From Fibrobacterota bacterium (lineage in GTDB: Bacteria; Fibrobacterota; Chitinivibrionia; Chitinivibrionales; FEN-1185): a stretch of 64,000 nt of DNA. The translations under genes and the position numbers were made by a program. Shown one piece after another: positions 11,124 through 63,955 of the stretch; positions within the stretch are counted from its first letter, which is position 1; each line of letters starts with the position of its first letter. The DNA is taken from the NCBI GenBank assembly GCA_003165595.1, contig PLWQ01000039.1, positions 1 to 64,000 on the forward strand, written 5' to 3'. A model generated the notes under the pieces. It did no database searches. It was not told where the DNA came from and saw only the letters and a list, made by a program, of their open reading frames with translations.

Positions 11124-11461
11124 GCTTCCTTTCGGCTCAATGTTACTCTCTCTTGCAAAGCAGCTGGGCGCCCCGCTGCTGAAGACATTAAGGTTATTGG
11201 GCGTTCCCCGGCCTTCGGCCGGGTCGGTTCTTCCTCAAGGCTCGGTCGTTGGCCTCGGTACCGCCTGCCGCAATGTACTTCGTACGCGGTCAGGCGGTAC
11301 CGCGCTCTGCGCGCCTTTCGGTCGCCCCTAACGCCGGGCATAGGTTCAATGCCACAGGGGATTGAATCTGAATTCTTAATGACCAATGCAAGATTTGCCG
11401 GGTGTCCTACCGCCATCAGCGCCGCTCCCAACATTCTCGCTTTCTACAAAAACAGCATCTT
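11124..11461. other. intergenic region with a structured element
   Basis: Convergent intergenic space between the COG2509 gene and the GH2 gene. It holds the element at 11198-11336 and otherwise nothing recognisable. Confidence 0.6.
11198..11336. repeat. GGCGTT...AACGCC-bounded palindrome-rich element
   Basis: Outer arms GGGCGTT and CCTAACGCC enclose GGCCTTCGGCC and a perfect 11-bp pair GGTACCGCCTG / CAGGCGGTACC. Similar GGGCGTTCCC...CCTAACGC elements are found between genes of several FCB and spirochaete genomes. The ends resemble integron recombination core sites, but no integrase is present. Confidence 0.5.
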
Positions 11462-19866: not shown

Positions 19867-21528
19867 TTATCGCGTAAGAACGATGCTCGTCTTTTGCCGG
19901 CTTTCTCCGTTGTTAAAAACAACGGCATACGCCCCGCCAACAGCATGAATTCGTTCCACAGGAATAGAAGCAGGCCCGGCGCTCATGCGCCTGAGATCGC
20001 TCGAAAAATCGGCTACCAGCAAACCTTTGAGCGAATATATCCGGAGCGACGAAAACCCGGGCTTCACAAGAGTGAATGCGACGCGCGATCCCGCTATCCT
20101 TAATTCCTGGCCCGCTTTGCCGTTTGGAGACACCGAAATTGCCGGGACCACCTTATCGGTCGGATACATTCTCACCGACATGTTATACCCGTCGCCGCTC
20201 ATACTCGTTAAGGTGCCATCGAGCCAGACAAGATTGATGTTCATGCCGTCTATGTGGCCGCGCGGTACGGACGGACGGACATTTTTTGCGGCCGATCCGC
20301 GCGTGATGGCCACCGAGTCCCAGGTGAGGCCGCTGTCGGCGGTGGTCCACTTGTCAAGTTCGAAGTTGGGGTTAACGGTAACAAAATTAGCGGTAGAGAT
20401 CTTTTTGTAATTTGCAAAGGTTGTATCCGCGAGATTGAACGGGGTTGCACTGGGTTTCACGGATTGACGCGACAGGTAAATAATGTTCGGGTTTTCGTGG
20501 TCGAAAGTCATGCCGCCGCAGAATTGCTGCCCCGTAACGCCGTCGTTCGCGCCGCTATTGACAAGCGGCCGCTTGAACCAATAGCTTCCGGTCCACCGTA
20601 AATACCAGTACACATGAATCGCGTTATTGCTGAAGAACATGTCGTAGAGAATAACGGGATTGTCGTTTTTGTCGTAAGCAATGTCCCACACCGTGCCCCC
20701 CGCGCCGTAGGCGCCGGGATATATCACGGTGTCGAGCACTGTATTTACAATAGGCAATTGGGCCATCGTGGCGATAAGCTTTCCGCTTGCCTGGTAAAAC
20801 GAGCCGTTCTTGTATTTCATGTAGTAGGTAGGAACAGTACCCCCAATGGCGCGGTTTTCCCGCTCAACGTCGATATGGATTTCGTCGATGCCGTTGGAAG
20901 CGCATGTGAAATAGGGCTTATACCCGGCCGGGTTGTTCGTATACAAGTGCATTTCGGTGCCCCATGTTTTTCCCCAGTCGTCGCTGGTTCGGAACCAGGG
21001 CTCCTGATTCTGGTCGCGGAAGAAGAGATAGTAACGACCGATAGTGCCTTCATTCTTGAGGAAACAAATGCTCGGGTAACAGGCCCAGGCCAGAATTTTT
21101 ACCGTAAACGTGTCGAGCGCGGAAATGTCTTCAGGCTGTTTGGAAATACACTCACTGACCTGCGTGCCGTCGTGACCCGACTGGAATGTCATGATTCGAC
21201 CGTCCGGCCGCACAATAACGCACGGATGGTTATGGTCGTCGGCCGGGTAATGCCACGGCAGCAGCACCTGGCTGGTGGTTTTAGTGTCGTGATCGTAATA
21301 GCCGAGGTACTGGTTTGTCGTATTGGAGGTCCAGGCGATATAGGTGCGTTTGTGGGTTCCCGCATAGTAAACGGCCTTGGGGTTTCCGTACCAGGTCCAG
21401 ACGCCGTTATCGGTGATTGACGTAAAGGTTTCGCCGGGCTGCGGTATTGTTTGTGCCGCAGGTTGCAGAGGAATCAAACACGACACGGCAAAGAACAGAC
21501 AAGATAAAGCGGTAAGCCTGATGAACAT
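19867..21528 (-). CDS. secreted BNR_4 beta-propeller protein with FlgD-like domain
   Basis: 553 residues from the ATG at 21528 (MFIRLTALSCLFFAVSC; GGAGGT 9 bases upstream). Residues 30-450 have the BNR_4 (PF15892) pattern: VWTWYGNPKAVYYAGTHKRT, DDHNHPCVIVRPDGRIMTF and FRTSDDWGKTWG, a seven-bladed propeller related to ulvan and rhamnogalacturonan lyase families as well as non-enzymatic binders. The C-terminal 80 residues are the sorting-like domain (SSLRIYSLKGLLVADF, then GGAYAVVFNNG). A histidine in DDHNH could be catalytic in lyase-type members. It is the first gene of the minus-strand GH cluster. A paralogue lies at 45056-46711. Lyase versus binding role is undecided. Confidence 0.85.
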   Translation of the reverse strand: MFIRLTALSCLFFAVSCLIPLQPAAQTIPQPGETFTSITDNGVWTWYGNPKAVYYAGTHKRTYIAWTSNTTNQYLGYYDHDTKTTSQVLLPWHYPADDHNHPCVIVRPDGRIMTFQSGHDGTQVSECISKQPEDISALDTFTVKILAWACYPSICFLKNEGTIGRYYLFFRDQNQEPWFRTSDDWGKTWGTEMHLYTNNPAGYKPYFTCASNGIDEIHIDVERENRAIGGTVPTYYMKYKNGSFYQASGKLIATMAQLPIVNTVLDTVIYPGAYGAGGTVWDIAYDKNDNPVILYDMFFSNNAIHVYWYLRWTGSYWFKRPLVNSGANDGVTGQQFCGGMTFDHENPNIIYLSRQSVKPSATPFNLADTTFANYKKISTANFVTVNPNFELDKWTTADSGLTWDSVAITRGSAAKNVRPSVPRGHIDGMNINLVWLDGTLTSMSGDGYNMSVRMYPTDKVVPAISVSPNGKAGQELRIAGSRVAFTLVKPGFSSLRIYSLKGLLVADFSSDLRRMSAGPASIPVERIHAVGGAYAVVFNNGESRQKTSIVLTR

Positions 21529-21733
21529 GATTATTCGCACCTCCGGTTTATGGGTCCCTGCACGCGCTTGTTTTGTCAACGATGGTTTAATCCGCGGGAT
21601 ACGCAAGGGTCGGCTGCCATTGTCGCTGCGGATCACATATTGACAGCTGCAAGATCCCGTTTCACCCGCTATTGGTATAACATAATGGAATGGACTTCTT
21701 TGCGACCTAAATTCATCCGGTTGGGCTCAGATT

Positions 21734-27590: not shown

Positions 27591-28352
27591 ATGATCGACG
27601 CAGCATCACTTCGGACTTTTGGGGGATCGGCCCGGGTATTCTTTTTCGCGGCCGTAGTGCTCTCGGGGCTTCTGGCAAGCTGCAGCAGCCCCAAGAGCGG
27701 GGCCGCGGGCACCGGCTCAACGGGCAATTTGATTGTCAATGGAAACGCCGAAGCGGCGGTAGGTTCCGACGACGGAACGCCCGTTTCGACCCCGAACTGG
27801 GTATCGGCCGGCGAGGCCACCGCAGCCCAATATGCCGTGAATGGATGGCCTGCGCCAACAGACTCTGGTCCGGCGGATCGCGGATTGAACCTTTTTTCCG
27901 GCGGACCGGTCGACTCGGCATCATCGCTCACCCAAACCGTCAACGTGAGCCACTACGCCGGCTCGATCGACAAGAATCATGCCACCTACAAGTTGTCCGG
28001 CTGGCTGGGCGGCTATGCTGACCAGGGAGACAACGCGACGGTGACCGCTACTTTTCAGGACGCGCTGGGCAACCCCCTTGGCACCGGGAGCATCGGTCCG
28101 GTCACGGCGAGCGACCGTTCGAACCAAACGGGGCTTTTGCCGCGGTCATCGGATGGCACTGTGCCGTCGGGAACGCGAAAAGTACTCGTTGTTATCTCCA
28201 TGGTCCGCACCGACGGCACTGCGAACGACGGTTACGCCGACAATCTGTCATTTATATTCAGCGGCATAGACGCAAATTTGCTCGGCGAAGTCGCTCTCAT
28301 CAAGACCGGTTGGCAAACTCCGCTGATGCTTGGCGCACCAACTGCTCCGTAA
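27591..28352 (+). CDS. lipoprotein with jelly-roll (CBM-like) domain
   Basis: 253 residues, ATG at 27591 after GGAAAGGA. The signal peptide ends in a lipobox LLASC (C31). The mature part starts NLIVNGNAEA, the usual opening of secreted carbohydrate-binding jelly rolls, and continues YKLSGWLGGYADQGDNATV and VLVVISMVRTDG with a conserved YADNLSF strand. No catalytic domain. It ends 39 bases before the next gene and probably shares its transcript. A sugar-binding surface lipoprotein is the likely role; the ligand is unknown. Confidence 0.75.
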   Translation: MIDAASLRTFGGSARVFFFAAVVLSGLLASCSSPKSGAAGTGSTGNLIVNGNAEAAVGSDDGTPVSTPNWVSAGEATAAQYAVNGWPAPTDSGPADRGLNLFSGGPVDSASSLTQTVNVSHYAGSIDKNHATYKLSGWLGGYADQGDNATVTATFQDALGNPLGTGSIGPVTASDRSNQTGLLPRSSDGTVPSGTRKVLVVISMVRTDGTANDGYADNLSFIFSGIDANLLGEVALIKTGWQTPLMLGAPTAP

Positions 28353-28391: not shown

Positions 28392-30101
28392 ATGCACAAC
28401 ATGAAATTTCCAGAACAATTATTGCTGATGGCAGGCCTTGTTTGTTGCGCCTTCGGCCAGACTGTCATCCAATCGAACATTTCCGGCACTGTAACCGACG
28501 GCCACGGGAATCCGCGCTCCGGAGCAATTGTAGTGTTGCTGAACGCGGGACTCATCGACTCAACTGATGCCGACGGAGATTTCACGCTCGCAGGCGATGT
28601 CGGCGTGAAACAGCGGCTTTCCGCCGCACTTGCGAAAAACGAAGTGGGTGTGCGCGGCGGTAAGCTCTACTTTACGATTCATTATGCAAATACGCCGGTT
28701 GCGGTTGAAATATTCGATTACCGGGGCAGAATGCTTTTCAATATGCCGCCCGTGGATTTTCTGCCCGGCAGCCATTGCATATCAATCGTCTCTCCACAAT
28801 CTCCGGCGATCGCTGTAAGCGCAATCGCCCGGGTCACCATCGGCCGGAATGAAAAGATCCTTCGTTTCCCCGGCTTTGGTTCCGCGTTCGCACAATCCGC
28901 ATCCGTTTCCGGGCAGCCTGCATATCTTGCAAAGACCCAGGCCGTGGTTGACACGCTGCTGGTGTCCGACTACAATTCCCTGACTGTGAGAGTTCCCATC
29001 ACCGATTACACGACGTCCTCGCTGCAGATAGCTGTTCCAAACGACAACCGCACCGATAAGCTGATTCTCAACGACGTCATAAAAGCAGGAAATGGCGACG
29101 GGCTGGTAATGCGATCCACCGACGAACTCTACCGGGCCCCGGGCGGGGATTCGGGCACGACCATGTCGTTTATGGGATTACGATCAATCGAACTGCCCGA
29201 TTTCGTGAATGTCGATTACGTGCAATTTTCAATGCCCAACAGCGCGTATTCCGACCGGATCGTCTATAGCTGGGAGTTTCTTCCGATCAACTGGTCGATC
29301 GACTCGTTTACCATCGTCGTCACTGCTAACGGCCTGGACACCATCGATCCAACCCAGGTGCTGCATCTGCTGTACGGCGCGGACACGGGCAACAAAACCG
29401 ATACGTTTACCATGAACCTGTATCCCGGTGATCTCCACGCGCTTCTTGGCAGATGCAAAACCGCGGTTCCCGGTTTCGATACAATGCCGGTGCACAATTT
29501 CTTCGCGGCAAATGGAATCAATCAATACGTCGATTTGCTTCGCTTGGCATACACCCAGTCGGCTCAGACTGCGTATTACCGATACCTGTGCGTGGTTTTT
29601 TCCACCGCGCAGGCCTGTATTGAGTTGACAAGGGTCCTTCCTTCACATTTGGCAAAGACCAGAGTCCTGCCTTCGCATTTGGCAAAACGAACCGGGGAAT
29701 TCGGCCCGACCACCATTGCGGAGGACCTGCTGAAGGCAATGCTGGCAAGCGTGATCAAAGATATTATTCGCGACCTGCTTGCAAAACCGCCCTCAGGAAT
29801 CGGCGCATTGCTCTGTGAAGGCGCGGACGCGAGCTGGGATGAATGCAAATATCAATATGTACAGTTTCCGGAAACCCCCACGGGCTCCGTGCCGTCCGAT
29901 GCAATAGACAAATGCATGAACATCTGTGCATGGGTGACGCTCGGATGTTTTACGAATATTTGCATGCCCATGAGCCTTGAAGAAGCCGAGGCGGGGGACT
30001 TGAAACAGCAGCTCGCTGCTTTTGATCTGAAGTATTTCGGGGGAGGAACCTTTGGCCCCGGGGGCGTTTTAACAAAGAAGATCCAGAAACGACTGCGGTA
30101 A
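28392..30101 (+). CDS. exported multi-domain protein of a duplicated two-protein module (component A, copy 1)
   Basis: 569 residues, ATG at 28392 after AAGAAGGGGG. Signal peptide (LLLMAGLVCCAFGQ). Residues 30-75 are a carboxypeptidase-regulatory-like beta domain (GTVTDGHGNPRSGAIVVL); residues 90-165 are a FlgD/sorting-like domain, here internal rather than C-terminal (VAVEIFDYRGRMLFNM). The middle is unassigned; the C-terminus is cysteine-bearing (LLCEGADASWDECKY, CMNICAWVTLGCFTNIC) and ends KKIQKRLR. A tandem RVLPSHLAK repeat lies near residue 420. Its paralogue at 60899-62611 shares all of this. No known family. Secreted, function unknown. Confidence 0.8.
   Translation: MHNMKFPEQLLLMAGLVCCAFGQTVIQSNISGTVTDGHGNPRSGAIVVLLNAGLIDSTDADGDFTLAGDVGVKQRLSAALAKNEVGVRGGKLYFTIHYANTPVAVEIFDYRGRMLFNMPPVDFLPGSHCISIVSPQSPAIAVSAIARVTIGRNEKILRFPGFGSAFAQSASVSGQPAYLAKTQAVVDTLLVSDYNSLTVRVPITDYTTSSLQIAVPNDNRTDKLILNDVIKAGNGDGLVMRSTDELYRAPGGDSGTTMSFMGLRSIELPDFVNVDYVQFSMPNSAYSDRIVYSWEFLPINWSIDSFTIVVTANGLDTIDPTQVLHLLYGADTGNKTDTFTMNLYPGDLHALLGRCKTAVPGFDTMPVHNFFAANGINQYVDLLRLAYTQSAQTAYYRYLCVVFSTAQACIELTRVLPSHLAKTRVLPSHLAKRTGEFGPTTIAEDLLKAMLASVIKDIIRDLLAKPPSGIGALLCEGADASWDECKYQYVQFPETPTGSVPSDAIDKCMNICAWVTLGCFTNICMPMSLEEAEAGDLKQQLAAFDLKYFGGGTFGPGGVLTKKIQKRLR
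29630..29683 (+). repeat. 27-bp tandem repeat inside the component A gene
   Basis: Two near-identical units encode RVLPSHLAK twice. The paralogue has degenerate LAK units at the same place, so the repeat number varies between copies. Confidence 0.7.
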
Positions 30102-30143
30102 GTATTGTCTTTCAGCTGCACGGGCTCAGCGATCCAAACGCGT

Positions 30144-30722
30144 ATGCAGTTCGAAATCGTGTCCGCAACTCTTTTTCTGCAAATAGCCTTGCTGGTAGCA
30201 GTCGTCTGCGCCACGGTGTTGATCGTGGCCTTTTCCGTTTTCAACGGCATCTCTCCCATGCCTTCCTCCCGAAAAGCATTGGCAGCGGTCCTGGAATTAA
30301 TAAAGGAAGCCGACACCGGCGGCAGCATTGTTGACCTCGGCTCGGGTTGGGGAACATTGTGTTTCGCTGTTGCGGCCGCATTTCCGGACAGGGAGGTGTG
30401 CGGGTATGAGAATTCCCCTGTTCCCTACATTTATTGTCTTTTGATCAACGCGCTGGTGAGGCGGAGAAATCTGCGATTTGTCCGTCGAAACTTCTATGCA
30501 GTGCCGCTTCACGAGGCCGGCCTGGTGCTCTGCTATTTGTATTCCGGGGCCATGGTAAGGCTTAAATCGAAATTTGAGAACGAACTGCGTGCCGGCACGG
30601 TGGTCGTGAGCAACACCTTTGCCGTGCCGCTCTGGAAACCGCGAGGGGTCGTTGAGTTGAGGGATATGTACCGCTCGAAAACCTATTTGTATGTTACCGG
30701 CAATGCGGCCCGTAACCTATGA
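30144..30722 (+). CDS. membrane-anchored class I methyltransferase
   Basis: 192 residues from the ATG at 30144. One transmembrane helix (LFLQIALLVAVVCATVLIVA) is followed by a short Rossmann methyltransferase with motif I IVDLGSGWGTLCFAVAAA and an acidic post-I end (VCGYENSP). The later LVLCYLYSGAMVRLKSKF is the motif IV/V region. The cytoplasmic domain is compact compared with most family members. The gene sits between the two components of the duplicated module (plus strand, 42 bases after component A) but is missing from the second copy. Substrate unknown. Confidence 0.8.
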   Translation: MQFEIVSATLFLQIALLVAVVCATVLIVAFSVFNGISPMPSSRKALAAVLELIKEADTGGSIVDLGSGWGTLCFAVAAAFPDREVCGYENSPVPYIYCLLINALVRRRNLRFVRRNFYAVPLHEAGLVLCYLYSGAMVRLKSKFENELRAGTVVVSNTFAVPLWKPRGVVELRDMYRSKTYLYVTGNAARNL

Positions 30723-30922
30723 AAAATCTTCGCTTGAAGATTCTGTTCATACGCTGTGAGTCACTGCTGACAAACGGTATGTTGACTAACACGTAATTAG
30801 AGGCACCGGGCAAATTCTGTAGTTGAGTTTTGCGTTAGTTGGACTGGAGGCCGTGGCCGAGCCCGCAAGGAGAACGACCCGAGCGCAGCGAGGGAAACGC
30901 CCAATGCATTATGTTGTTATTG
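30723..30922. other. intergenic, convergent
   Basis: No gene seen. Contains a GC-rich CCGAGCGCAGCGAGGG stretch and no clear terminator. Confidence 0.4.
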
Positions 30923-32179
30923 TCAATTGATCTTCGAGAGATTGTACAGGGTATACTTGACGATCCTCATGAGCTGCGGAAAGGACGCGATGTCCTGGTT
31001 GTGGTAATTGGTCCACAAGAATCGCCCCCTGCCGAGATAATTCTCGATAATAACCCCGCTCTGCGGGCTGCGGTTCTTTATGGCCCCCATCACGCGCGCA
31101 TCCGGAGGCAGATCGGAGAACGTTTCGTATCCTGTCAACATCCTGCCGCCGTTGTCGGTGGACTGCCACGCAATCCGGGTGTATCCGACGTTGGCGGCCA
31201 TTGCGGTGTCGAGGATGATCAGCGTATCGGCAGGCTGCTGGTCGCCGTCGTCGATATTCTGGTAGTACGGGGCGAATATCGACTCCAGGGCGAAATATCC
31301 CCAATGACCTCCGTACACGACCCCGCCCTGCTCAATGTAATGACTCATGGCCACATAAAGTGAGGTACCGCCAAGGTCCGCGGGGATTTCCGGAGCGATG
31401 CAATCGAGGAACACCATGCCGTACTGCACCAGGATGTTGTATGCTTGCACGGTGTCAGAATCGGCGCGCGCGGCAAAGGTGTCGACCGACATGGTGTCGA
31501 ATTTTGTAAACCCGATTGCCGGGAGCAGCACCTCAATTGATTCCGCAGGGGCCTTGAGGACCAGTAGCTTGACGGATGAGTTCTGCGAAAGGCGAAGCAC
31601 GGGTGCCGTGACCGCGGTGTCGCCGGAAGAAATCCGGACCGAACCCTGCGCGCCGAAAATGCCCAGACGCGCGGAAACGGTTCTCGTTCCGGCAAAAGCG
31701 TAGACCACGGCTTTCCCGTAGAAATTCGAAACAGCCGTGTCGGACGCCCCGTCGATCCAGATGCGCACGCCGCCGAAAGGCTGTCCCTGCGGATCGTCGA
31801 CCGTCACGCCCACCGGTACCGTTTGCGCCGGGCCGAGAATTACCGGCGAAAGGACCGTAGCGCTGTCGACGGCGGGAACCGTTTCATCGCGGCTGACAGC
31901 GAGCATCCCGGATTGCGCTTCCAGAACCTGGCTGCCGGACGGCGAGGTGAGGGTCGCCCTGCCGAGGCTGTCGGTGATCACCGTGTCGCTTTGCCCGTCA
32001 AACCAGACCTTGACGCCTTTGCTCGGCTGACCCGCGGAATCGACCACGGTGATCTTTACCGTATATTCCTGCACCTTCGGCGCTGCCGGATTGGGATTTT
32101 TTTTGCCGCATCCGACGATCACGCAGACTGACGCGACAAACGCCACAAGAACCATTGTCAAAGATCGTTGCGTGCTCAC
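30923..32179 (-). CDS. lipoprotein with two regulatory-like domains and a ThuA/GATase-like C-terminus (component B, copy 1)
   Basis: 418 residues from the GTG at 32179, chosen because GGAAGGA lies 6 bases upstream and the signal peptide then fits. The lipobox is VIVGC. Two repeated carboxypeptidase-regulatory-like domains follow (YTVKITVVDSAGQPSKGVKV and VGVTVDDPQGQPFGGVRIWI). The C-terminal half (from about residue 205) has a ThuA/class I amidotransferase-like pattern: VFLDCIAPEI, GGVVYGGHWGYFAL and GRGRFLWTNYHNQD. Its paralogue at 62705-63955 is collinear throughout. It is convergent with component A here. An envelope-bound partner of component A is inferred from the repeated pairing. Confidence 0.8.
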   Translation of the reverse strand: MSTQRSLTMVLVAFVASVCVIVGCGKKNPNPAAPKVQEYTVKITVVDSAGQPSKGVKVWFDGQSDTVITDSLGRATLTSPSGSQVLEAQSGMLAVSRDETVPAVDSATVLSPVILGPAQTVPVGVTVDDPQGQPFGGVRIWIDGASDTAVSNFYGKAVVYAFAGTRTVSARLGIFGAQGSVRISSGDTAVTAPVLRLSQNSSVKLLVLKAPAESIEVLLPAIGFTKFDTMSVDTFAARADSDTVQAYNILVQYGMVFLDCIAPEIPADLGGTSLYVAMSHYIEQGGVVYGGHWGYFALESIFAPYYQNIDDGDQQPADTLIILDTAMAANVGYTRIAWQSTDNGGRMLTGYETFSDLPPDARVMGAIKNRSPQSGVIIENYLGRGRFLWTNYHNQDIASFPQLMRIVKYTLYNLSKIN

Positions 32180-32307
32180 ACTTGTTCCTTCCGCAAAAGT
32201 GTTTGGTACTTCACTTGTTTCCACAAGATCGGCTAGTCTTGTAATGGCTAAAGAATAGCCATCAAAGATACTGCTTTCTTGAAAGGATAAGAACGATTCG
32301 TGTTCGC

Positions 32308-34299: not shown

Positions 34300-37095
34300 A
34301 TGTTTAAAGGATTTGCAGCAGCAGTGCTTCTAGTAGTTGCTTTGGCTCTCACTGCCACCAATGCAGCGACTGTTGACCAGGGAAACAGGCTAAAGATCAA
34401 CTTCGGGGCAACGCCGTGGAAGTTTATCAGGGGCGATGCAATCAATGGCCAGGGATTAACAACAAACGATGCGGCGTGGACGACCGTGGGGCTGCCGCAT
34501 ACATGGAACGAAAACGACATCTTCGTCAACATGGCTGCCGGCGGGCCGGCTCCGAACATGGGCGGACTCTCCTGGTACCGGAAACACTTCACCCTCGACC
34601 AGAGCTACTCCACCAGGAAGATTTTCGTTGAGTTCGAGGCGTCGCATATCGGGATGCAGGTGTACATTAATGATAGTTTGATTAAGGGCAACAGCGGGGT
34701 CAATCCCAACGCAACGCATGTGGTGGGATTCCTGCCCGTCATTGTCGACCTTACTCCCTATGTCGTTTTCGGGGGCGCAGACAATGTGCTGGCGGTGCGT
34801 ATCGGAGACGGCGGGTCGTTCTTTTCTTCACCAACGTTTTCATACGATTTCCGTTTCGGCCAGGGCTGCTATGGATTGTGGCGTCCCGTGTGGATGCACA
34901 TCACCGACAAGCTGTATATCCCCGCCAACGTTTACTCTGTTGTCAATAACTGGGGAACCTGCGTCGGCGCAACAGCGGCCAGCGATGCCTCTGCCACGGT
35001 GCGCGTCATGACCCACGTGCAAAATGAGTACAGCACGGCGCAGAATGCGACACTTGTTACGGAGATCGTGGACGCATCAAACGCCGTGGTATCCACTCAG
35101 ACGAGCACGCAGTCCATAGACCCAGGCAAGAGCTATGTGTTCGACCAGAACCACACCGTAGTCAATCCGCACCTGTGGTATCCGGCAGCCAGCACCTATG
35201 GCACACCGTACATGTACAAGGTATATCACATTGTAAAGATCGCCGGCACCACTGTCGACGTGTTCAAGAGCCCGCTGGGCATAAGGACCGTAACATGGGA
35301 CGCCAACGGAATACCGGTTATAAACGGTCATGCGCATCAGATGTGGGGCGTAGGTTCGCGCTACGATTATCCCGCGCTTGCCACCGCCGTTCCCGAAGAA
35401 CAGCAGTGGCGTGACGCCAAGATTTGCGCCGAATATGGCGGCCGGCTCTGGCGTCCCGGCCATTCAACCGGAAGCCCCGAGCTTACGGCAGCCTGCGATG
35501 CATACGGCATCATGCTCATGCAGCCCAGCGGTGATCTCGAAGGGAATTTCGCCACGGCACAAATCACCGCCGGACCCTCGCCGACTTACAAGAAAACACT
35601 CAAGACCGAAGTCCACCGCGACATGATAGTACGCGACCGGAACAACCCTTCGATCCTTTCGTGGGAGGTCAGCAACGGGCCCATCGACAAGACTTTTGAA
35701 CAATATCTGCGCGACAGCATTCAAAAGGTCTGGGACCCCATAAGCTATCACCCGATGTCGGACCGGGGATACGGTGATGCGGCCACGAACAACATTGCCG
35801 AAATATGGTCGTGCTCCGGCCTGGGATGCGGGATCGGATTCAAAAACGGCAATGCAACAACTCCGATATGGGGCGCGGAGGAGTGGGACTATACCCATCG
35901 CACCTATCGCTGGGATTACGACAATGAACTCAGTTTCGCAAGCGTCTTTGTCAATAACTGGTACGGATACCAGCAGGCGAAATGCTTCGGACTGGCGCAC
36001 TGGTATTTTTCCGAGACGCCGGGTGAAACCGGACTCGGCAGAGGGTTCCAGGAAGCCATGTTCGATCAAAACCGCATTCCAAAAATGCTTGCAAAGATCT
36101 ACCAGGCAAACTGGATGCCCTTCGCCGTCAAGCCGGTTGTGAGCCTTGCAAACCACTGGAACCGCTCCGGTGCGGTTCAAGTCAACGCCTTCAGCAATTG
36201 TCCCAAAGTGCGCTTGTCAATCAACGGCACGCAGCAGGGCACCCCGGTTGTTCCCGCTGCAGGCGGCGGCAGCCTCATGCCCTCGCAATGCCAATGGAAC
36301 GTCACGTTTGCAGCCGGAACCCTGCTTGCCGAAGGGCTTGACGCAAACAACAACGTGGTTTGTTCCGATAAGAAGGTTACCGCGGGAAATCCCGACCACA
36401 TTCTCCTCACCGTCGAACCGCCGCTGGTAAAGCCCGACGGCAGCCAATTCCAGATTACCGCCAACGGCTCCGATGCAGCGTTCATTCTTGCAACGGTAGT
36501 CGATGCGCAGGGCAACTGGTGCCCGGAGGACAGCCACAACATCACCTTTGCGGTTTCCGGGCCGGGAACCTACCGGGGCGGCGCGGACGGCGACGTCAAG
36601 CCGGGCGCCATAACGGTCCACGCGCCGGGCGACCCCGAACTTTCCGCACAGGGCGGCATGTGCAAAGTCGCCGTGGTTTCCACCTTTGCAACCGGCACAG
36701 TAACGGTAACCGCGACGTCGGCAGGACTTGGCCAGGGCACAGCCTCCTACAGCGTTGTTGCGCCCGTTATTGAATTGCCGATTTTTGACACTCCGGTAGG
36801 CACGCATCTCGGACTACCGGCGCGCAGCGCACTTCCGGATTGCCGGATCGAGGCTGTCGGTCAAACCATACGGTATTTCATAAGTCAACCTACATATTTG
36901 TCGGTTGAGATTCTCAGCGCCAATGGAAGAATAGTGAAGAAAATCCCCCGCACCCTGCGCGGGGAAGGATGGCACATGGTGTCGCTTGCGGATCCGTCGC
37001 AAAGCGGCGCTACGGGTAATGGTGTTTTTGTCGTACGCCTTACTTCCGATGGCCGAAACCTTGCCGCGAGACGCGTGATACTGATGAGAAATTAG
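34300..37095 (+). CDS. secreted GH2 family glycoside hydrolase, paralogue of 11462-14272
   Basis: 931 residues, ATG at 34300 after AAAGGGGGAGAAG. Signal peptide MFKGFAAAVLLVVALALTA. Same order as its paralogue: sugar-binding jelly roll (VGLPHTWNEND, SWYRKHFTLD), Ig-like domain, TIM barrel, Ig-like modules and FlgD-like C-terminus ending ILMRN. The nucleophile is conserved (E527 in IWGAEEWD). The acid/base segment reads LSWEVSNGP, so the expected glutamate is G460 and a glutamate sits at 456. Likely exo-acting on plant oligosaccharides. It is monocistronic, with its own promoter and a terminator at 37137. Confidence 0.9.
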   Translation: MFKGFAAAVLLVVALALTATNAATVDQGNRLKINFGATPWKFIRGDAINGQGLTTNDAAWTTVGLPHTWNENDIFVNMAAGGPAPNMGGLSWYRKHFTLDQSYSTRKIFVEFEASHIGMQVYINDSLIKGNSGVNPNATHVVGFLPVIVDLTPYVVFGGADNVLAVRIGDGGSFFSSPTFSYDFRFGQGCYGLWRPVWMHITDKLYIPANVYSVVNNWGTCVGATAASDASATVRVMTHVQNEYSTAQNATLVTEIVDASNAVVSTQTSTQSIDPGKSYVFDQNHTVVNPHLWYPAASTYGTPYMYKVYHIVKIAGTTVDVFKSPLGIRTVTWDANGIPVINGHAHQMWGVGSRYDYPALATAVPEEQQWRDAKICAEYGGRLWRPGHSTGSPELTAACDAYGIMLMQPSGDLEGNFATAQITAGPSPTYKKTLKTEVHRDMIVRDRNNPSILSWEVSNGPIDKTFEQYLRDSIQKVWDPISYHPMSDRGYGDAATNNIAEIWSCSGLGCGIGFKNGNATTPIWGAEEWDYTHRTYRWDYDNELSFASVFVNNWYGYQQAKCFGLAHWYFSETPGETGLGRGFQEAMFDQNRIPKMLAKIYQANWMPFAVKPVVSLANHWNRSGAVQVNAFSNCPKVRLSINGTQQGTPVVPAAGGGSLMPSQCQWNVTFAAGTLLAEGLDANNNVVCSDKKVTAGNPDHILLTVEPPLVKPDGSQFQITANGSDAAFILATVVDAQGNWCPEDSHNITFAVSGPGTYRGGADGDVKPGAITVHAPGDPELSAQGGMCKVAVVSTFATGTVTVTATSAGLGQGTASYSVVAPVIELPIFDTPVGTHLGLPARSALPDCRIEAVGQTIRYFISQPTYLSVEILSANGRIVKKIPRTLRGEGWHMVSLADPSQSGATGNGVFVVRLTSDGRNLAARRVILMRN

Positions 37096-37496: not shown

Positions 37497-39839
37497 TTAT
37501 TTATATATCCCTTTCGGCAACTGCTGGCCCGCGGAATTCAGGCCGTAGTCGTACGGGTACAGCGGATCGTAAGTCGCGTCACCCACGTTGATCGGTTCCT
37601 GCGCCGTGTTCCTCGGCCACGACGTCGAAAGCTTGCCGCTGAACTCATAGTTGCCGTACAGCACTTCGGCAATGCCGCCTCCCTCGGTGCCGGGCAGCCA
37701 CGCGGCAACGATCGCATCGCATTTGTCGGCAATGGTGCTTATGTCCATGGGACGACCGGTTATCATGACGCATATCACCTTTTTGCCCGAATTCTTGGCC
37801 GTGGTAACAAGGCTCGCTTCCGGAATGGTCAAATCGGTCCTGTCACCTATCATTTCCGCGTACGGCTGTTCTCCAATGCAGACAACTGCCACGTCGCCGG
37901 TGATGCCGTTGCCGTCTGCGCTGTAGGAAATGTTTGCCACGCCGCCGATGCTTTCAAATCCCTGGCGGATGGTGGTTCCGGGCATTGAGTTCCCTGCCGC
38001 GCCCTGCCAGCCCAGAGTCCAGCCGCCGCATTGCAGCCCTACGTCCTGCGCGTGCGGACCCACAAGGGTGACCTTTGCGGTTTTGGAAATTGGAAGAACG
38101 CCTGCGGATGTTTTAAGCAGGACAAGCGACTTGCGCACCGCCTCGCGGGCAATATCGCGGTGTGCCTGACTTCCGACGGTTGCCGTTACCGAAAGGTCCG
38201 TGGCCAGCGGCGCGGTAAAAAGTCCCATCCGGTACTTGATGCGGAGCAGGCGTTTCACGGCATCATCGACCCGTGCGCCGCTGCCGCTGGTGTACAGGCC
38301 GTTAAACAGGGTCTGCAAATCGCCGATTCCGTCGCTGCTCGCGCCCCTCATCGGGATATCGAGACCTGCTATGATGCAATTGGCCGCGCTTGACGTTCCG
38401 GTAATGTGGCCATCCCAGTCGCCATTGACAAACCCGTCGAATCCCTGGCTCGTCTTGAGCCAGTCGGTAAGCAGCACCTTGTTCTCGTGCATGCGCACGC
38501 CGTTCCAGCTGGAAAACGATGCCATCACCGACGCGGTCCCGGCCTGCACCGCCGCGGTGTAGCCGGGCAGATGGATCGACCGGAGGATTGAATCTACTCC
38601 CGTGGTGTTGCCGCGGTCGACGCCGCCGTCGGTGCCGCCGTCACCGGCAAAGTGCTTGGTGCATGCCGCAACCACGAGCGGATTTGACAAGTCGGACAAC
38701 TGGAACCCGAGCACAGCCGCGCGGGCCATCACGGGCGTCAGGTCGGGCGATTCGGAGAAACCTTCGTACACCCGCCCCCATTTGTCGTTCCTCGGCACCG
38801 CGATGCACGGGCCGAAGGCCAGGTTGACGCCGCCGCCGCGCGCCTCGATTCCCGCGACCCTGAAGCATTTCTGGACAATCACCGGATCAAAGGTGCACCC
38901 CAGTCCGATGTTGTGCGGATTGACTGTTGCACCGTTGCACTTGCCGAACCCGTGGACGATGTCGAAGCCGATGAGCAGAGGAATTTTCTTGGGGGTGGTC
39001 TGGCTTGCGTTCTGGTAGTTGGTGCAGAAGCTCGCCCATTCCGAGGGGTGTCCCGCGCCGCCGCCCGGGCCGTCGGATCCGCCGCCGAAAATCGTACCCA
39101 GAAGCGCGCTCGTCACGAAACTGGAGGCCGGGCAGTCCACCTGAACGAGCTGACCCACTTTCTCAGCCTGGCTGAGCGTGCCCAGCAGCGTGTTCACCTC
39201 GCCTTCTATGTCAATGGGGGTCAGGATGACGTTGCCCACATTCGCCGAATAGGAATCGATCGCGATCTTGACAGGTAAGTATCCTGTTTTGCCGACGCGG
39301 ACCGTGTCGACAGCTGCCAGTTTCTTGGCCACAGCGGTAGAAGCTGCGCCGTATGACGCGGGGCTCACGGCCGCGATACCGTTCCTCCCGCCTGTATTCA
39401 TCAGTTTTTGAAAGGTGGTCTTGTCGCCCACGGTCGTCTTGAGCACATACACGGTGCGGGCAAACGTTGAAGGCAGCTTGATGGAATACATTCCTTTGTC
39501 AAGATACCCTTCAAACAGGGTGCCTGTTTTCCTTCCGTCAAGTCCGTACAGCTCCGCGCGGACAAATCCCGCCGAAAAAACCGGGAATGCCGGCTCATGT
39601 GAGACCGGTCCGGCCACGGCCGTGTTACCCGTGCCGAAATTGCCGTTCGCATCCGAAAAGTCCCACGACAGGCGTTTGGCAATGCTTGTGTAGGTAGCCG
39701 TCGCATTTGCGATGGGCTGGCCGGTTGCGGTCACTGCTTTTCCGGTGACCGTGAAATCGCCGCTCTGGGCGAAGGCAACGGTGAATGCCGCTGCAATCGC
39801 AATCGAAACAGTACAGAACTTGATACCCTTCCTTTTCAT
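37497..39839 (-). CDS. secreted GH3 glucan hydrolase, ExoI-like
   Basis: 780 residues, ATG at 39839 after AAAAGGAG. Signal peptide MKRKGIKFCTVSIAIAAAFT. Residues 28-70 are a carboxypeptidase-regulatory-like domain and 85-150 a FlgD-like domain in N-terminal position (FVRAELYGLDGRKTGTLF). The GH3 part follows: VGQLVQVDCPAS, IPLLIGFDIVHGFGKCNGAT, CTKHFAGDGGTDGG and nucleophile D474 in FVNGDWDGH, then GH3_C (VVCIGEQPYAEMIGDRTDL). This resembles barley-ExoI-type beta-glucan exohydrolases that act on beta-1,3/1,4-glucans. It differs from the two GH3 enzymes at 14.5-19.3 kb in domain order. Confidence 0.92.
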   Translation of the reverse strand: MKRKGIKFCTVSIAIAAAFTVAFAQSGDFTVTGKAVTATGQPIANATATYTSIAKRLSWDFSDANGNFGTGNTAVAGPVSHEPAFPVFSAGFVRAELYGLDGRKTGTLFEGYLDKGMYSIKLPSTFARTVYVLKTTVGDKTTFQKLMNTGGRNGIAAVSPASYGAASTAVAKKLAAVDTVRVGKTGYLPVKIAIDSYSANVGNVILTPIDIEGEVNTLLGTLSQAEKVGQLVQVDCPASSFVTSALLGTIFGGGSDGPGGGAGHPSEWASFCTNYQNASQTTPKKIPLLIGFDIVHGFGKCNGATVNPHNIGLGCTFDPVIVQKCFRVAGIEARGGGVNLAFGPCIAVPRNDKWGRVYEGFSESPDLTPVMARAAVLGFQLSDLSNPLVVAACTKHFAGDGGTDGGVDRGNTTGVDSILRSIHLPGYTAAVQAGTASVMASFSSWNGVRMHENKVLLTDWLKTSQGFDGFVNGDWDGHITGTSSAANCIIAGLDIPMRGASSDGIGDLQTLFNGLYTSGSGARVDDAVKRLLRIKYRMGLFTAPLATDLSVTATVGSQAHRDIAREAVRKSLVLLKTSAGVLPISKTAKVTLVGPHAQDVGLQCGGWTLGWQGAAGNSMPGTTIRQGFESIGGVANISYSADGNGITGDVAVVCIGEQPYAEMIGDRTDLTIPEASLVTTAKNSGKKVICVMITGRPMDISTIADKCDAIVAAWLPGTEGGGIAEVLYGNYEFSGKLSTSWPRNTAQEPINVGDATYDPLYPYDYGLNSAGQQLPKGIYK

Positions 39840-43000: not shown

Positions 43001-44315
43001 TCGTATTGCGCAACGTCAAGTGGTAAAACGCAACGGGCCAGGTCATTTTCGTCTGGTCTGCAAGGTTGTACGGTGCGAATGCGGTGAGCGTTACCGACAC
43101 GTTGTTCGTCGTGCCGAAATTTGCATATTCCACCGGGAAGATGGCGTCGTCGTCATAACGGGAATTCGCATTATAGGTGCGCTTTACCGCGCTCATTACG
43201 GCCTGAGTCAGAACCGTCGAGCCGCTTTTTGTGTACAGCGAAAATTTCCAATTCTGCTGCTGAACATAATCCTCCTGGCCCGCCGGCGTCTTTGACTGAA
43301 AAGCGAATTGGCCGTTCCACGGGCAAAATTTTACCGCGCCCGCGCCCGCGCCGCCCAGAGGCGCTCCTGTTGTGCCGTCCACGGCCTCCGCAATGGAGAA
43401 GCTTGCGGTGCTGCTGGCCTTGTCGCCTGCCGCAATATGGGCGACGACATTCCATGTATGGGAAGAACCAATGGGTGTTGCGGCAATGGTTGTAACCACG
43501 ACTTCACCGCAGGTGACACTCGCGGGAATGCTGTCGGCCACTTTGTTTCCGTCAACCATTATGGCATAGCCCGTTGCGCCGGCCATGGTATTCCACTCAA
43601 AGATTATCGAGCCGCCCGGAGACTTGAAAACACGCGCTCCGTCCGCGGGATAGGTTATGCTGAAGGGAGCTTTTTGCAGAACAAAATTAAAGGTGCCGGA
43701 ATACGCGCTTATTGCGCTCAGACCCTCGACAAACCCCGACGCGGTTGCGATAAGGGTATCCACCGCGGCTGCACGCTTTGCAGACGCCGGCGCCGCGGAA
43801 TAACCGTGAACGCACACAAGACCGCCTTGCATGCCTGTATATTTATTGACATAGGTAAGCGCATGCGTGGTGGTGACGGCGCCGATCCGCGCTTTTACAA
43901 CATACATTTTTGCCGGGAGATTCGGGCTCACAAGCGGCAGTCGGTATTCGCCAGGAGCGAGCGACGCATTGACAAGATCGACGGCCAGTCTGCCGGTCAG
44001 GTCGTACAACTGTATCCGGACAGGCTGTGCTTTTGCCACAGCAAACGAAAGAGAAAGTCCATGGATGGCCGGAGGTTCGGCGAATGACGGGGCAAGAGAT
44101 ACATGGACGTTCTGTGTGAATGGGATGCTGTAGGAGCCGCTGGTGTCCGTTGAAGTCGTTATGCCTTTCACGACAAGACGCACCGTTGCGCCCGCGATGG
44201 CATTGCCTCCTTCGTCTTTGACTGTTCCCGTAATTGAACCGGCTTGGCCATGGGAAAAGGAGAACAGCCCTGCCATCAAGAAACACAGCATGCGTATACG
44301 ATGCTTTTTGCTCAT
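40080..44315 (-). CDS. secreted multi-domain GH116-like glycoside hydrolase with nested CBM32
   Basis: 1411 residues from the ATG at 44315 (MSKKHRIRMLCFLMAGL; AAAAGGAG upstream). Order: signal peptide; carboxypeptidase-regulatory-like domain (27-70); FlgD-like domain in N-terminal position (VRIQLYDLTGRLAVDL); Fn3-like domain; GBA2_N-like domain (PLGGAGAGAVKFCPWNGQFA); (alpha/alpha)6 GH116-type catalytic domain (YTKDGRYSEWEGIYTW, WADLDCGFLFGVYESFIATG, SDGEAEGWVPYVMGHLG); two Fn3-like domains, the last interrupted by a CBM32/F5-8C domain (GKTATGSSVAQGNVATNAVD). GH116 includes beta-glucosidases, beta-xylosidases and glucosylceramidases. Own promoter upstream. Family assignment is from motif pattern only. 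Confidence 0.82.
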   Translation of the reverse strand: MSKKHRIRMLCFLMAGLFSFSHGQAGSITGTVKDEGGNAIAGATVRLVVKGITTSTDTSGSYSIPFTQNVHVSLAPSFAEPPAIHGLSLSFAVAKAQPVRIQLYDLTGRLAVDLVNASLAPGEYRLPLVSPNLPAKMYVVKARIGAVTTTHALTYVNKYTGMQGGLVCVHGYSAAPASAKRAAAVDTLIATASGFVEGLSAISAYSGTFNFVLQKAPFSITYPADGARVFKSPGGSIIFEWNTMAGATGYAIMVDGNKVADSIPASVTCGEVVVTTIAATPIGSSHTWNVVAHIAAGDKASSTASFSIAEAVDGTTGAPLGGAGAGAVKFCPWNGQFAFQSKTPAGQEDYVQQQNWKFSLYTKSGSTVLTQAVMSAVKRTYNANSRYDDDAIFPVEYANFGTTNNVSVTLTAFAPYNLADQTKMTWPVAFYHLTLRNTKDTPVDAACAFQISTGSTPTVVSGQGFAAEGGAPSKALLVKSGDPSAVVSVGNDAGFLTTGTLNNTPSGTVNMVAAKVTLGPGEKKDIEFVLSWYESDDPPGYYYANSGTNAQFFAKTCLDSFDNLESRAVQFVERFRSSNVPDWIVNTTLDQTTWTNSSIYTKDGRYSEWEGIYTWFGQMDQGWHAFGSEIWRINGPMFSWPSASEMEFWARTEMVGGDNDGQISHDFIPGAGQVTDHKTCVWDAPGYHGWGGPNWADLDCGFLFGVYESFIATGDKTRMDTYWPYFKRTAQRLYRLSTIDNGNTTYPFTFQGTGATYDKGPQDHDLYNSGLALTAFKIIAEMAGIYGDAGMQDSFTTAYTTGIASFKRRYLANPSTAIASNAETPFAGLAMSLYFHEDQMFSDAEINTTLSYLINNFWHPLDLGMAASGSDGEAEGWVPYVMGHLGAAFLNTNHVAEWRAIQRDFYNRYFGNRNRVFDGGIYLVYNGLGDNFASTDWSGHSFYVSMPVVWRNYYSLIGFWYNAYTNALYVEPKLPSTTDKWGASMNHELKNALFCMPGNYGTISYKEDGSTYQNQTITVRFDKPQKVSSIYISDRFLPATTVSVTVNGATAQFSRIGSGTFDRRIKINWTGTVDSTGVLIGAADQGFNDATPPLAFNLVTPANGSTVQSTMPILVWNQSSDPESGIQEYDVYVNGNKVASTTDTFYAFTAITPGSFSWYVTAINWVNKGTSSATRTFAYSDTIPPSAFSLSAPADNGTVSGPAVSFFWQTATDNGTGMDHYEFSLDGAKVANVVCDTVATSYGNIALGKTATGSSVAQGNVATNAVDGNATTRWESSAADSQWLRIDLGTPSRIDSATISWEAAYASSYEIDVANDTLSWTGKAVYQTTTSAGGKESIKGLNAIGRYVRLFCIKRGTTWGNSLYEFSVYGMPLATYLAASVPAGVHSWNVVAVDKAGNKTAANKAFSVTVQ

Positions 44316-44361
44316 TGCATTGCTCCTTTTATCAAAACTTATGCTGATTCGTGCGTGATTA

Positions 44362-44390
44362 ATTATACGCTTAAACACCAATTCGGTCAA
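44362..44390 (-). promoter_or_regulatory. promoter of the GH116-like gene
   Basis: On the minus strand TTGACC (44385-44390), 17-base spacer, TATAAT (44362-44367), about 47 bases before the start codon. Confidence 0.75.
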
Positions 44391-60898: not shown

Positions 60899-62611
60899 TT
60901 ACCGTAGTCGTTTCTGGCTCTTCTTTGTTAAAACGCCCCCGGGGCCAAATGTCCCGCCCCCAAAATATTGTTCGTCAAAAATAGCGAGTTGCTTCTTGAT
61001 ATCGCCCGCCTCGACTTCTTCAAGGGTCATCGGCTCGCAAATATTGCTAAAGCATGCCAGCGTTGCCCAGGTACAAATTTTCATGCACTTATCAATTGCC
61101 TCTTGCGGTACGTCGCCATAGAAATCCTTCTTATAGCGTACGTATTCATATTTACATTCATCCCAATTTTGATCCGCGCCCTCACAGAGCAAGGCGTCAA
61201 AACCCGATTCCGGTGGTTTTGCGAGAAGATCCCGGGCAATCTCCCTAAGGACATTTTTAAGCATCGTTTTGAGGAGATCCTCGGCGATGGTGGTAGGGCC
61301 GAATTCCATTATCTTGGCCAACCGCGCGGGGGAAACGGATCTTCCCGCTCTCTTAGCAAGACGCAGGGGAAGGATCTTCTGCATTTCGATACAGGCGTGG
61401 GCGGTTGAAACAACAACGCACAGGTACCGGTAATAGGCCATCTGGACCGAATCGAAATATGCTAAATGAAGAAGATCGTTATAGTTGTTGATTCCGTTTG
61501 CCGCCAGGAAATTATGCACCGGCATCGTATCGAAATCTGGAACAGCCACTTTACACCGGCCGAGAAACGCGTGCAAATCTCCAGGATGCAAATCAAGGGT
61601 AAACGTATCGGAGCTGCCGGTTGTGTCCGCGCCGTACAGCGCGTGGAGAACCTGGTGGGGATTGATGGTGTCGAGCCCGTGGCTGAAGACAACGATGGTA
61701 AACGAGTCGATGGCCCAGTTTATCGGAAGGAACTCGCGACTGTATACTATCCGATGCGGCCAGGGGCCTTTGGGGTTGCTGAATGAGACATAGTCGACAT
61801 CCAGATTGTCGGGTGGTTCAAGTCGCCGTTTTGCATAGAACGACATTGTCGTGCCCGAATCGCCCCCCGGGGCCCGATAGATTTCATCGGTTGATTGCGT
61901 TATTTTCCCCGGGCCTAATGCATAGACATCATTAAGGACCAGCTTGTCGGTGCGATTATCTTTTGTCAATGAAATGGTTTGCGAGGACCCGGTATATTCG
62001 GTAATGGCAGTTCTGGATGTTAGAAAGTCGTAGTCGGACACCAGCAGCGTGTCGACCACTGCCTGGGTTTTTGCGAGAAACCGGGGACCCTGGGGAACCG
62101 ATGGGGATTGAACAGACGGACCGCCGAGATCGGCAAAGCGGAGGATTGTTTCATTCGAGCCTATGGTGATCCGGGCAATGGCAATCAATGCGATGTTCTG
62201 CGAGGAAAGCGTTCCGATTGTAACATAATGGCTGCCGGGCAAAAAATCCGCCGGAGGCATGGAGAAAAGCATTCTCCCGCGACAATTGAACAATTCAATC
62301 TTGACAGGCGTCTTTACATGATGGATAGTGAAGTAAAGCCTGCCATTGCGTATGCCCACTCCGTTATCTGCAGCAGAAGGAGACTGGAGCGGATGTACGC
62401 CCACGGCTCCTTGAAGGGAGAAATGTCCATTGGTGTCGGCAGTGTCCACTAATCCGGCGTTCATCAGCATGACTATCGCTCCGGGGCGCGGATTGCCTTT
62501 GCCGTCGGTTATGGTGCCGGAAATATTCGATTGAATCACCGTCTGACCGGATACCCGGAAAATGATGCACATCATCAAACATAGAATTGCTTTATGTGCA
62601 ATGCCCCTCAT
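60899..62611 (-). CDS. exported multi-domain protein, component A, copy 2
   Basis: 570 residues from the ATG at 62611 (MRGIAHKAILCLMMCIIFRV; AGGAGG 4 bases upstream). Collinear with 28392-30101: regulatory-like domain (SNISGTITDGKGNPRPGAIV), internal FlgD-like domain (VKIELFNCRGRMLFSM), unassigned middle with LVLNDVYALG and a tail with LLCEGADQNWDECKY and CMKICTWATLACFSNIC, ending KKSQKRLR. It differs mainly in the degenerate LAK repeat. It lies 93 bases after component B, on the same strand, so it is probably in an operon. Secreted; function unknown. Confidence 0.8.
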   Translation of the reverse strand: MRGIAHKAILCLMMCIIFRVSGQTVIQSNISGTITDGKGNPRPGAIVMLMNAGLVDTADTNGHFSLQGAVGVHPLQSPSAADNGVGIRNGRLYFTIHHVKTPVKIELFNCRGRMLFSMPPADFLPGSHYVTIGTLSSQNIALIAIARITIGSNETILRFADLGGPSVQSPSVPQGPRFLAKTQAVVDTLLVSDYDFLTSRTAITEYTGSSQTISLTKDNRTDKLVLNDVYALGPGKITQSTDEIYRAPGGDSGTTMSFYAKRRLEPPDNLDVDYVSFSNPKGPWPHRIVYSREFLPINWAIDSFTIVVFSHGLDTINPHQVLHALYGADTTGSSDTFTLDLHPGDLHAFLGRCKVAVPDFDTMPVHNFLAANGINNYNDLLHLAYFDSVQMAYYRYLCVVVSTAHACIEMQKILPLRLAKRAGRSVSPARLAKIMEFGPTTIAEDLLKTMLKNVLREIARDLLAKPPESGFDALLCEGADQNWDECKYEYVRYKKDFYGDVPQEAIDKCMKICTWATLACFSNICEPMTLEEVEAGDIKKQLAIFDEQYFGGGTFGPGGVLTKKSQKRLR

Positions 62612-62704
62612 AACACCTCCTCTTCGATGAAGTCGATCGCGGACGGATTCCTTGTTGTCACAAACGTATGCGATTTTGCTTTCGGTTCCCCAAAACACGC
62701 AGGC

Positions 62705-63955
62705 TTACCGCAGCTCCGCTGCATCATACAACACATATTTCAACAGTTTTATCTGTTCCGAAAACGATGCAATATCCTGACTATGGAAATTGGTCCAGAG
62801 AAACCGGCCCAGGCCGAGGCGGTTTTCGACAATCACCCCGACCTGAGGATGCGCATTCTGGATAACAGCGAGAACTTTTGCGTCGGGAGGAAGGTCGGTG
62901 AATTTTTCGTAGCCGGACAAACCTCTATCATCGGTCGATTGCCAGGCAATCGAAGAATACCCCACATACGACGACAGGGCGGGATCGGTTATAAGGAGAG
63001 TATCATTGGGGGTTAAATCTTGAATATCACCTTGCTGGTAATATCCCGGGAAAAGCTGTTGTAGCCCTCTGAATGCGTAATGACCGCCATAGGCCACGCC
63101 GCCACTCGAAATATATTGGCCTAAAACCGAAAATATATTCGCGTTATATATCCCGTCTTGACCATCGCAATTTAAGAATACCATGGGATAATTTCTGAGG
63201 AAATCGAAACATTTGGCGGAATCGCGATTTGCCAATGCGGTGAGGGAATCGGCCGAGATTGAATCAATAGAGGTGAATCCGATGGTCGGAAGCAAGGTTT
63301 GAATCGTTTCGGCAGGAGTAGTAGCCACCAATACTCTCACCGCCGGATCCAGAACAAGACGAAGTGCCGGCACGGATAGTGCCGTATCGCAAGGGCTCAC
63401 CATGATAGGTATCTGTCCTATAAAAACCCCGAGTCGCGCCTTGAGCAATCTCGAACCGCAGGGTGATTCCAGGGTTGCTTTGCCGGAGGAATCGGATAAA
63501 ACCGTATCTCGGGTGCTATCGATCCACACTCTCACTCCGCCGAAAGGTTTTCCCTGCGGATCGTCCAGTACGGCATGTACCGGCATCATTGTTATGGGGC
63601 CGAAGGTGATAAGGTGCGGGATTGAAACAGAGTCTTGAGATGTTATTGAGACAGTGGCCGTTTTTTGTTCCTGGCCAAATGCAAGCCCGATTGCCTGGGT
63701 CCCGGCAGGCAATTCAAACAGTGCCTTACCCGAGCAATCCGTGGTGACCGTATCACTGTGGCCCGTCGCCCATACTTTAGCGCCCTTGCGCGGTTGATTC
63801 AATGAATCGACGACGGTAATGGTGACGGAATAAGTCTTGGCGGAACCTGGCGGGGAAACCGGATTGGTTTCCTTTTTTCCGCAGCAACCGGCAAATAAAA
63901 AAGAAATGCAGACTAAACCAAATATTGCCAGGAGGGTGAAACGTTTTGTTTTCAA
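62705..63955 (-). CDS. lipoprotein, component B, copy 2
   Basis: 416 residues from a TTG start at 63955 (AAGGAG 8 bases upstream). Lipobox LFAGC. Two regulatory-like repeats (YSVTITVVDSLNQPRKGAKV; VHAVLDDPQGKPFGGVRVWI) and the ThuA/GATase-like C-terminus (VFLNCDGQDGI, GGVAYGGHYAFRGL, LGRFLWTNFHSQD), collinear with 30923-32179. Upstream DNA leaves the window, so the promoter is not visible. With component A downstream it forms the intact version of the module. Confidence 0.82.
   Translation of the reverse strand: MKTKRFTLLAIFGLVCISFLFAGCCGKKETNPVSPPGSAKTYSVTITVVDSLNQPRKGAKVWATGHSDTVTTDCSGKALFELPAGTQAIGLAFGQEQKTATVSITSQDSVSIPHLITFGPITMMPVHAVLDDPQGKPFGGVRVWIDSTRDTVLSDSSGKATLESPCGSRLLKARLGVFIGQIPIMVSPCDTALSVPALRLVLDPAVRVLVATTPAETIQTLLPTIGFTSIDSISADSLTALANRDSAKCFDFLRNYPMVFLNCDGQDGIYNANIFSVLGQYISSGGVAYGGHYAFRGLQQLFPGYYQQGDIQDLTPNDTLLITDPALSSYVGYSSIAWQSTDDRGLSGYEKFTDLPPDAKVLAVIQNAHPQVGVIVENRLGLGRFLWTNFHSQDIASFSEQIKLLKYVLYDAAELR

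Follow-up and report, generated by a model that had tools for sequence, protein, structure and literature searches.

The 64,000-nucleotide stretch analysed here (the window), from a 5.4 Mb Fibrobacterota genome, contains two pairs of related genes. Component A (28392..30101, forward strand) is confirmed as an open reading frame encoding an exported protein of 569 residues, and component B (30923..32224, reverse strand) encodes a lipoprotein-like protein of 433 residues. Their paralogues lie at 60899-63955, where A' (60899..62698, reverse strand; the first ATG is at 62611, and the GTG at 62698 is an upstream alternative) is preceded directly upstream on the same strand by B' (62705..63955). The first pair is convergent, with a small methyltransferase-like gene (30105..30722, forward strand) between A and B, and a lipoprotein-like protein of 253 residues, here called protein C, is encoded upstream of A (27591..28352, forward strand). 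A and A' are 65% identical over 564 residues in a pairwise alignment, B and B' are 44% identical over 412 residues, and both alignments run end to end. The genome has exactly two full-length A genes and exactly two B genes. A scan of named genome contigs yielded only two relatives of A. The initial annotation had described two collinear pairs in different arrangements, convergent and same-strand, and both the pairs and their arrangements were recovered. Its statement that the composition corresponds to no named system also holds. No named family accounts for either A or B over the full length of the protein.

The N-terminus of A is signal-like, an FlgD/T9SS-CTD-like stretch lies in its interior, and its tail carries six conserved cysteines, in agreement with the description of A as an exported protein with a cysteine-rich end. 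The internal FlgD-like domain assigned to it is present as a stretch of sequence, but it is not specific to A: it is part of a module of ~215 residues that occurs in ~30 proteins of the genome. In A this N-terminal module occupies approximately residues 24-217 (28461..29042, forward strand), with the T9SS-CTD/FlgD-like domain lying inside a CarboxypepD_reg domain. The first half of PF13620 is located at residues 30-68, and the inserted Ig-like domain covers approximately residues 84-160 (28641..28871, forward strand; approximate boundaries taken from the alignment). The C-terminal domain (approximately residues 240-540; 29109..30011, forward strand) contains the six conserved cysteines and a CFTNIC motif and gave no usable match in Pfam, NCBIfam or PDB sequence searches. 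It is conserved in homologues in two other genomes, G018 and G037, with 23-27% identity, and since other N-terminal domains precede it there, it is a separable unit; in a third genome, G017, it is a fragment.

AlphaFold models of the two proteins, calculated from alignments of five and two sequences, do not allow firm statements about their folds. The model of A is poor (pLDDT of 41.5); when it was submitted to Foldseek, it gave weak fold matches to 8gl8_D (E of 0.009) and 8glk_D (E of 0.045), both of them small chains from T9SS translocon complexes. Single-sequence searches of the PDB gave no useful match.

The N-termini of B and B' are lipobox-like, and each protein carries two CarboxypepD_reg domains, with PF13620 scores (32.8 and 39.8 bits, respectively) that exceed the curated cut-off of 32.3 bits. 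The C-terminal alpha/beta domain of B is not assigned to a family. The lipoprotein start and the two regulatory-like domains proposed for B are thus retained, but its proposed ThuA/GATase-like end is not matched in sequence: searches of Pfam, NCBIfam and PDB sequences with this domain returned no match, ThuA/GATase-like or otherwise. What it may share with ThuA/GATase-like domains is an alternating strand/helix pattern in the weak model (pLDDT of 51.9, falling to ~30 over the last 110 residues). Foldseek matches to the model of B are mostly to Ig/pilin-type and carboxypeptidase-regulatory proteins, chiefly via the CarboxypepD_reg-like region, and there is no ThuA-like fold among the 50 matches listed. 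B' (62708-63955) also shows a weak match to the model of the archaeal S-layer protein SlaB (2.8e-7; 30 bits against a cut-off of 700), and a SlaB structure is among the fold matches of the B model. This likeness probably reflects shared Ig-like or CarboxypepD_reg-like domains.

Each of the two B genes of this genome has an A gene no more than ~1 kb away. By our own rough estimate the chance of such proximity is ~1e-6, and the linkage is therefore a real feature of this genome; its occurrence in both paralogue pairs is a hint of a shared role. The initial annotation had gone further and suggested that A and B work together in the envelope. They could indeed form an envelope complex of a surface protein and a lipoprotein, with the ancestral linkage lost by rearrangement in the same-genus genome G031 and both genes kept, and the presence of A and B in both genomes of the genus fits this proposal, as does the proximity of the genes. 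The comparison between genomes argues against it. Across 168 Fibrobacterota genomes, full B was found in this genome and G031 only, whereas the C-terminal domain of A is found in these two, in G018 and G037 and, as the fragment, in G017; B was not found in the latter three, which belong to the same order, one with Chitinivibrionales MAGs among its members. In G031 the genes are unlinked, with A on contig C60 (36 kb; 9604-11301) and B on contig C39 (27 kb; 20207-21640), at least ~15 kb apart even if the two contigs abut. Every other genome with A, a sample of only four, has A without B within 5 kb, the kind of outcome that the initial annotation had named as counting against its proposal.

The neighbourhood of A in G031 bears on the same question. 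A GH2 gene (34300-37095 in the window) is 84% identical in G031, where it lies ~17 kb downstream of A, and no B is present in the stretch between them; the methyltransferase-like gene does not follow A there. The conserved neighbour of A is instead protein C, within this genus only and in a genus sample of two genomes: C is 67% identical in G031 and lies immediately upstream of A. Protein C was not found outside this genus among the 168 genomes, and it matches no Pfam or NCBIfam family. Beside the A-like gene of G037 there is a lipoprotein (L026:380-1384) that by eye resembles a GH114-type TIM barrel.

The divergences of the two paralogue pairs were compared with those of the orthologues. A and B are each 72% identical between this genome and G031, with a third-position identity of 0.58 in each case. 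The corresponding values are 65% and 0.53 for A and A', and 44% and 0.34 for B and B'. On these sequence distances, the duplication of A is only slightly older than the split between this genome (G000) and G031, while that of B looks much older than the split. Because these divergences disagree, A and B do not have the appearance of a single duplicated unit, and duplication of A and B together as one recent unit was rejected. Under a rough clock the two duplications would be separate events, although faster evolution of B' could also account for the difference. A sliding comparison of identity revealed no gene-conversion patches between A and A'. Taken with the lack of linkage in G031, the occurrence of the A domain without B and the conservation of C as the neighbour of A, the unequal paralogue divergence makes an A-B complex distinctly improbable in our estimation.

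The N-terminal module of A has a much wider distribution than A itself. The first ~210 residues of A, and no other part of the protein, retrieve ~20 other proteins of the genome. An alignment of 18 members gives a common order of signal-like start, first half of CarboxypepD_reg, Ig-like T9SS-CTD-like domain and a segment resembling the second half, over ~215 residues, with the insert at ~85-165 in most members. With a profile built from these 18 members, 30 near-full-length copies were identified in the genome, most of them carried by glycoside hydrolases. The same profile has matches in 165 of the 168 Fibrobacterota genomes, and the weaker of these matches may span one half only. The cargo domains on module proteins include GH30, GH3, GH64, GH116, FGE-sulfatase and an esterase plus Fib_succ_major. 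Two copies are found elsewhere in the window, both on the reverse strand: one at the N-terminus of a GH116-like protein (43671..44300, in the open reading frame 40080-44390) and a weaker one (39231..39821) on a protein of 780 residues that is GH3-like by inspection.

The nested arrangement was examined by removing the insert in silico. In the intact proteins the first half of CarboxypepD_reg (PF13620/PF13715) is matched in 17 of the 18 members; intact A scores 23.1 bits with PF13620, under the curated cut-off. Once the insert is removed, PF13620 aligns across the junction, and eight of ten proteins score better than a control with a shuffled second half. The two without a gain include A, which scores 27.9 bits compared with 28.4 bits for its shuffled control. 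Nesting is well supported by these alignments for the module generally, and for A it is supported by homology. In its first half the module resembles other CarboxypepD_reg domains, including the N-terminal extensions of SusC, and PDB chains of SusC homologues are among the matches of the module profile. The module differs from these domains in being split by the Ig-like insert, and the match of the solved SusC chains is confined to the first part of the profile. Judged by eye, cleavage of the signal peptide at its likely site would leave a glutamine exposed (FGQ|T, SQT, AQT) in ~15 of the 18 module proteins; this resembles the Q-rule of Bacteroidetes, said not to be general in related phyla (PMC5837995).

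The similarity of the insert to type IX sorting domains was assessed against the genome's own complement of such domains. SprA is present with a score over the cut-off, and TIGR04183 has 142 matches in the genome. Among the best 30 of these 142 matches, 29 end 0-21 residues from the stop codon, and the remaining one is inside a nested module. With a local CTD profile built from the 29 C-terminal domains, the insert is detected (E < 0.01) in 28 of the 30 module proteins of this genome and in 18 of 20 module proteins taken from 11 genomes (ten of the 20 are from G031). TIGR04183 itself matches eight of the 18 aligned members at E <= 0.1 (best value 1e-6) and has no significant match in A. With the local profile the insert of A gives an E of 0.35 and that of A' an E of 0.003; judged by these scores, the insert of A is divergent relative to the other module proteins. 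Two PorU-type T9SS sortases were also noted over the cut-off (L113 and L114, on contigs C41 and C14), together with two weaker relatives.

A significant CTD was found at the C-terminus of none of 50 module proteins (the 30 from this genome and the 20 from elsewhere). These 50 are the best-scoring ones and are not independent, as close paralogues and orthologues are among them. Two GH2 proteins of the window, used as positive controls, match the CTD profile at their C-terminal ends. This mutual exclusion suggests that the module replaces the C-terminal tag, yet it fits equally well with another destination for the module proteins. They may stay in the periplasm or leave the cell by a different route, in which case no CTD would be needed. 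The signal-peptide-like N-termini are compatible with such a destination, as is the lack of a C-terminal CTD, but some of the cargo enzymes (GH64 and GH30) act on large polymers and would be better placed outside the cell. This last argument is indirect, and we consider a different destination rather unlikely.

A further explanation is that the module is a mere structural spacer or a substrate-binding unit, and that its likeness to FlgD and to CTDs is generic Ig-fold similarity with no sorting role. The literature lends this some weight: a CTD at the C-terminus is described as a requirement for T9SS cargo (PMC11285876), T9SS signals are elsewhere also described as C-terminal (PMC5837995), and the module is N-terminal. 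The scores of many members below the family cut-off point in the same direction. Set against this, the match between the insert and the CTD profile derived from this genome is specific, and the complete separation of module and C-terminal CTD in the 50 proteins would be unexpected for a neutral spacer. A role as spacer or binding unit seems to us possible, but less likely than not.

We favour, by a modest degree of confidence, a reading in which A and B are lineage-specific envelope proteins, each duplicated near the other, that do not constitute an obligate two-protein system, and in which A opens with a surface targeting or presentation module. The N-terminal module of A, a T9SS-CTD-like Ig domain within a transthyretin-like CarboxypepD_reg domain, is common to many exported glycan-degrading proteins, and would carry the protein to the cell surface or hold it there. 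The cysteine-rich C-terminal domain of A would thereby be exposed to the exterior. B would be anchored separately by its lipid, with the two CarboxypepD_reg domains forming a stalk under the alpha/beta domain, which may bind or act on a glycan. Weighing against this reading are the divergence of the insert of A, the lack of a gain for A over its shuffled control and the poor quality of the models. In this account A and B themselves are of modest importance, as two small lineage-restricted families.

A broader proposal, which we put forward as speculative and consider unlikely, is that the type IX signals of Fibrobacterota include a second form, in which a CTD-like Ig domain nested in an N-terminal CarboxypepD_reg domain would target or anchor dozens of glycan-degrading enzymes in place of the C-terminal tag. 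If the module does sort or anchor proteins, the C-terminal rule for T9SS signals would gain a widespread exception in a phylum known for degrading plant fibre, and searches restricted to C-termini, as made at present, would overlook many surface enzymes. Fibrobacter cellulases have been proposed as T9SS cargo on the basis of their C-terminal domains (PMC6851124).

Compared with the T9SS type A sorting domain (TIGR04183/PF18962), the module is similar in the sequence of its insert, in the company of SprA and PorU-type sortases in the genome and in the weak fold match of the A model; it differs in that the insert is N-terminal, lies within another domain, is followed by a catalytic domain and is not at the protein end. 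A published parallel in the same phylum is the chitinase CHISP_3496 of Chitinispirillum alkaliphilum, for which passages of PMC4814513 give the order signal, ChiC, Por and GH19, with the Por sorting domain ahead of the C-terminal catalytic domain. With this chitinase already reported, a CTD away from the C-terminus is not entirely without precedent; those passages do not describe nesting in a CarboxypepD_reg domain or a recurrent module. A search of open-licence papers turned up no description of a recurrent module nested in this way. Just past the window, an open reading frame of 627 residues (L035; C1:64058-65941) lies upstream of B' in the same orientation and carries a C-terminal T9SS CTD.
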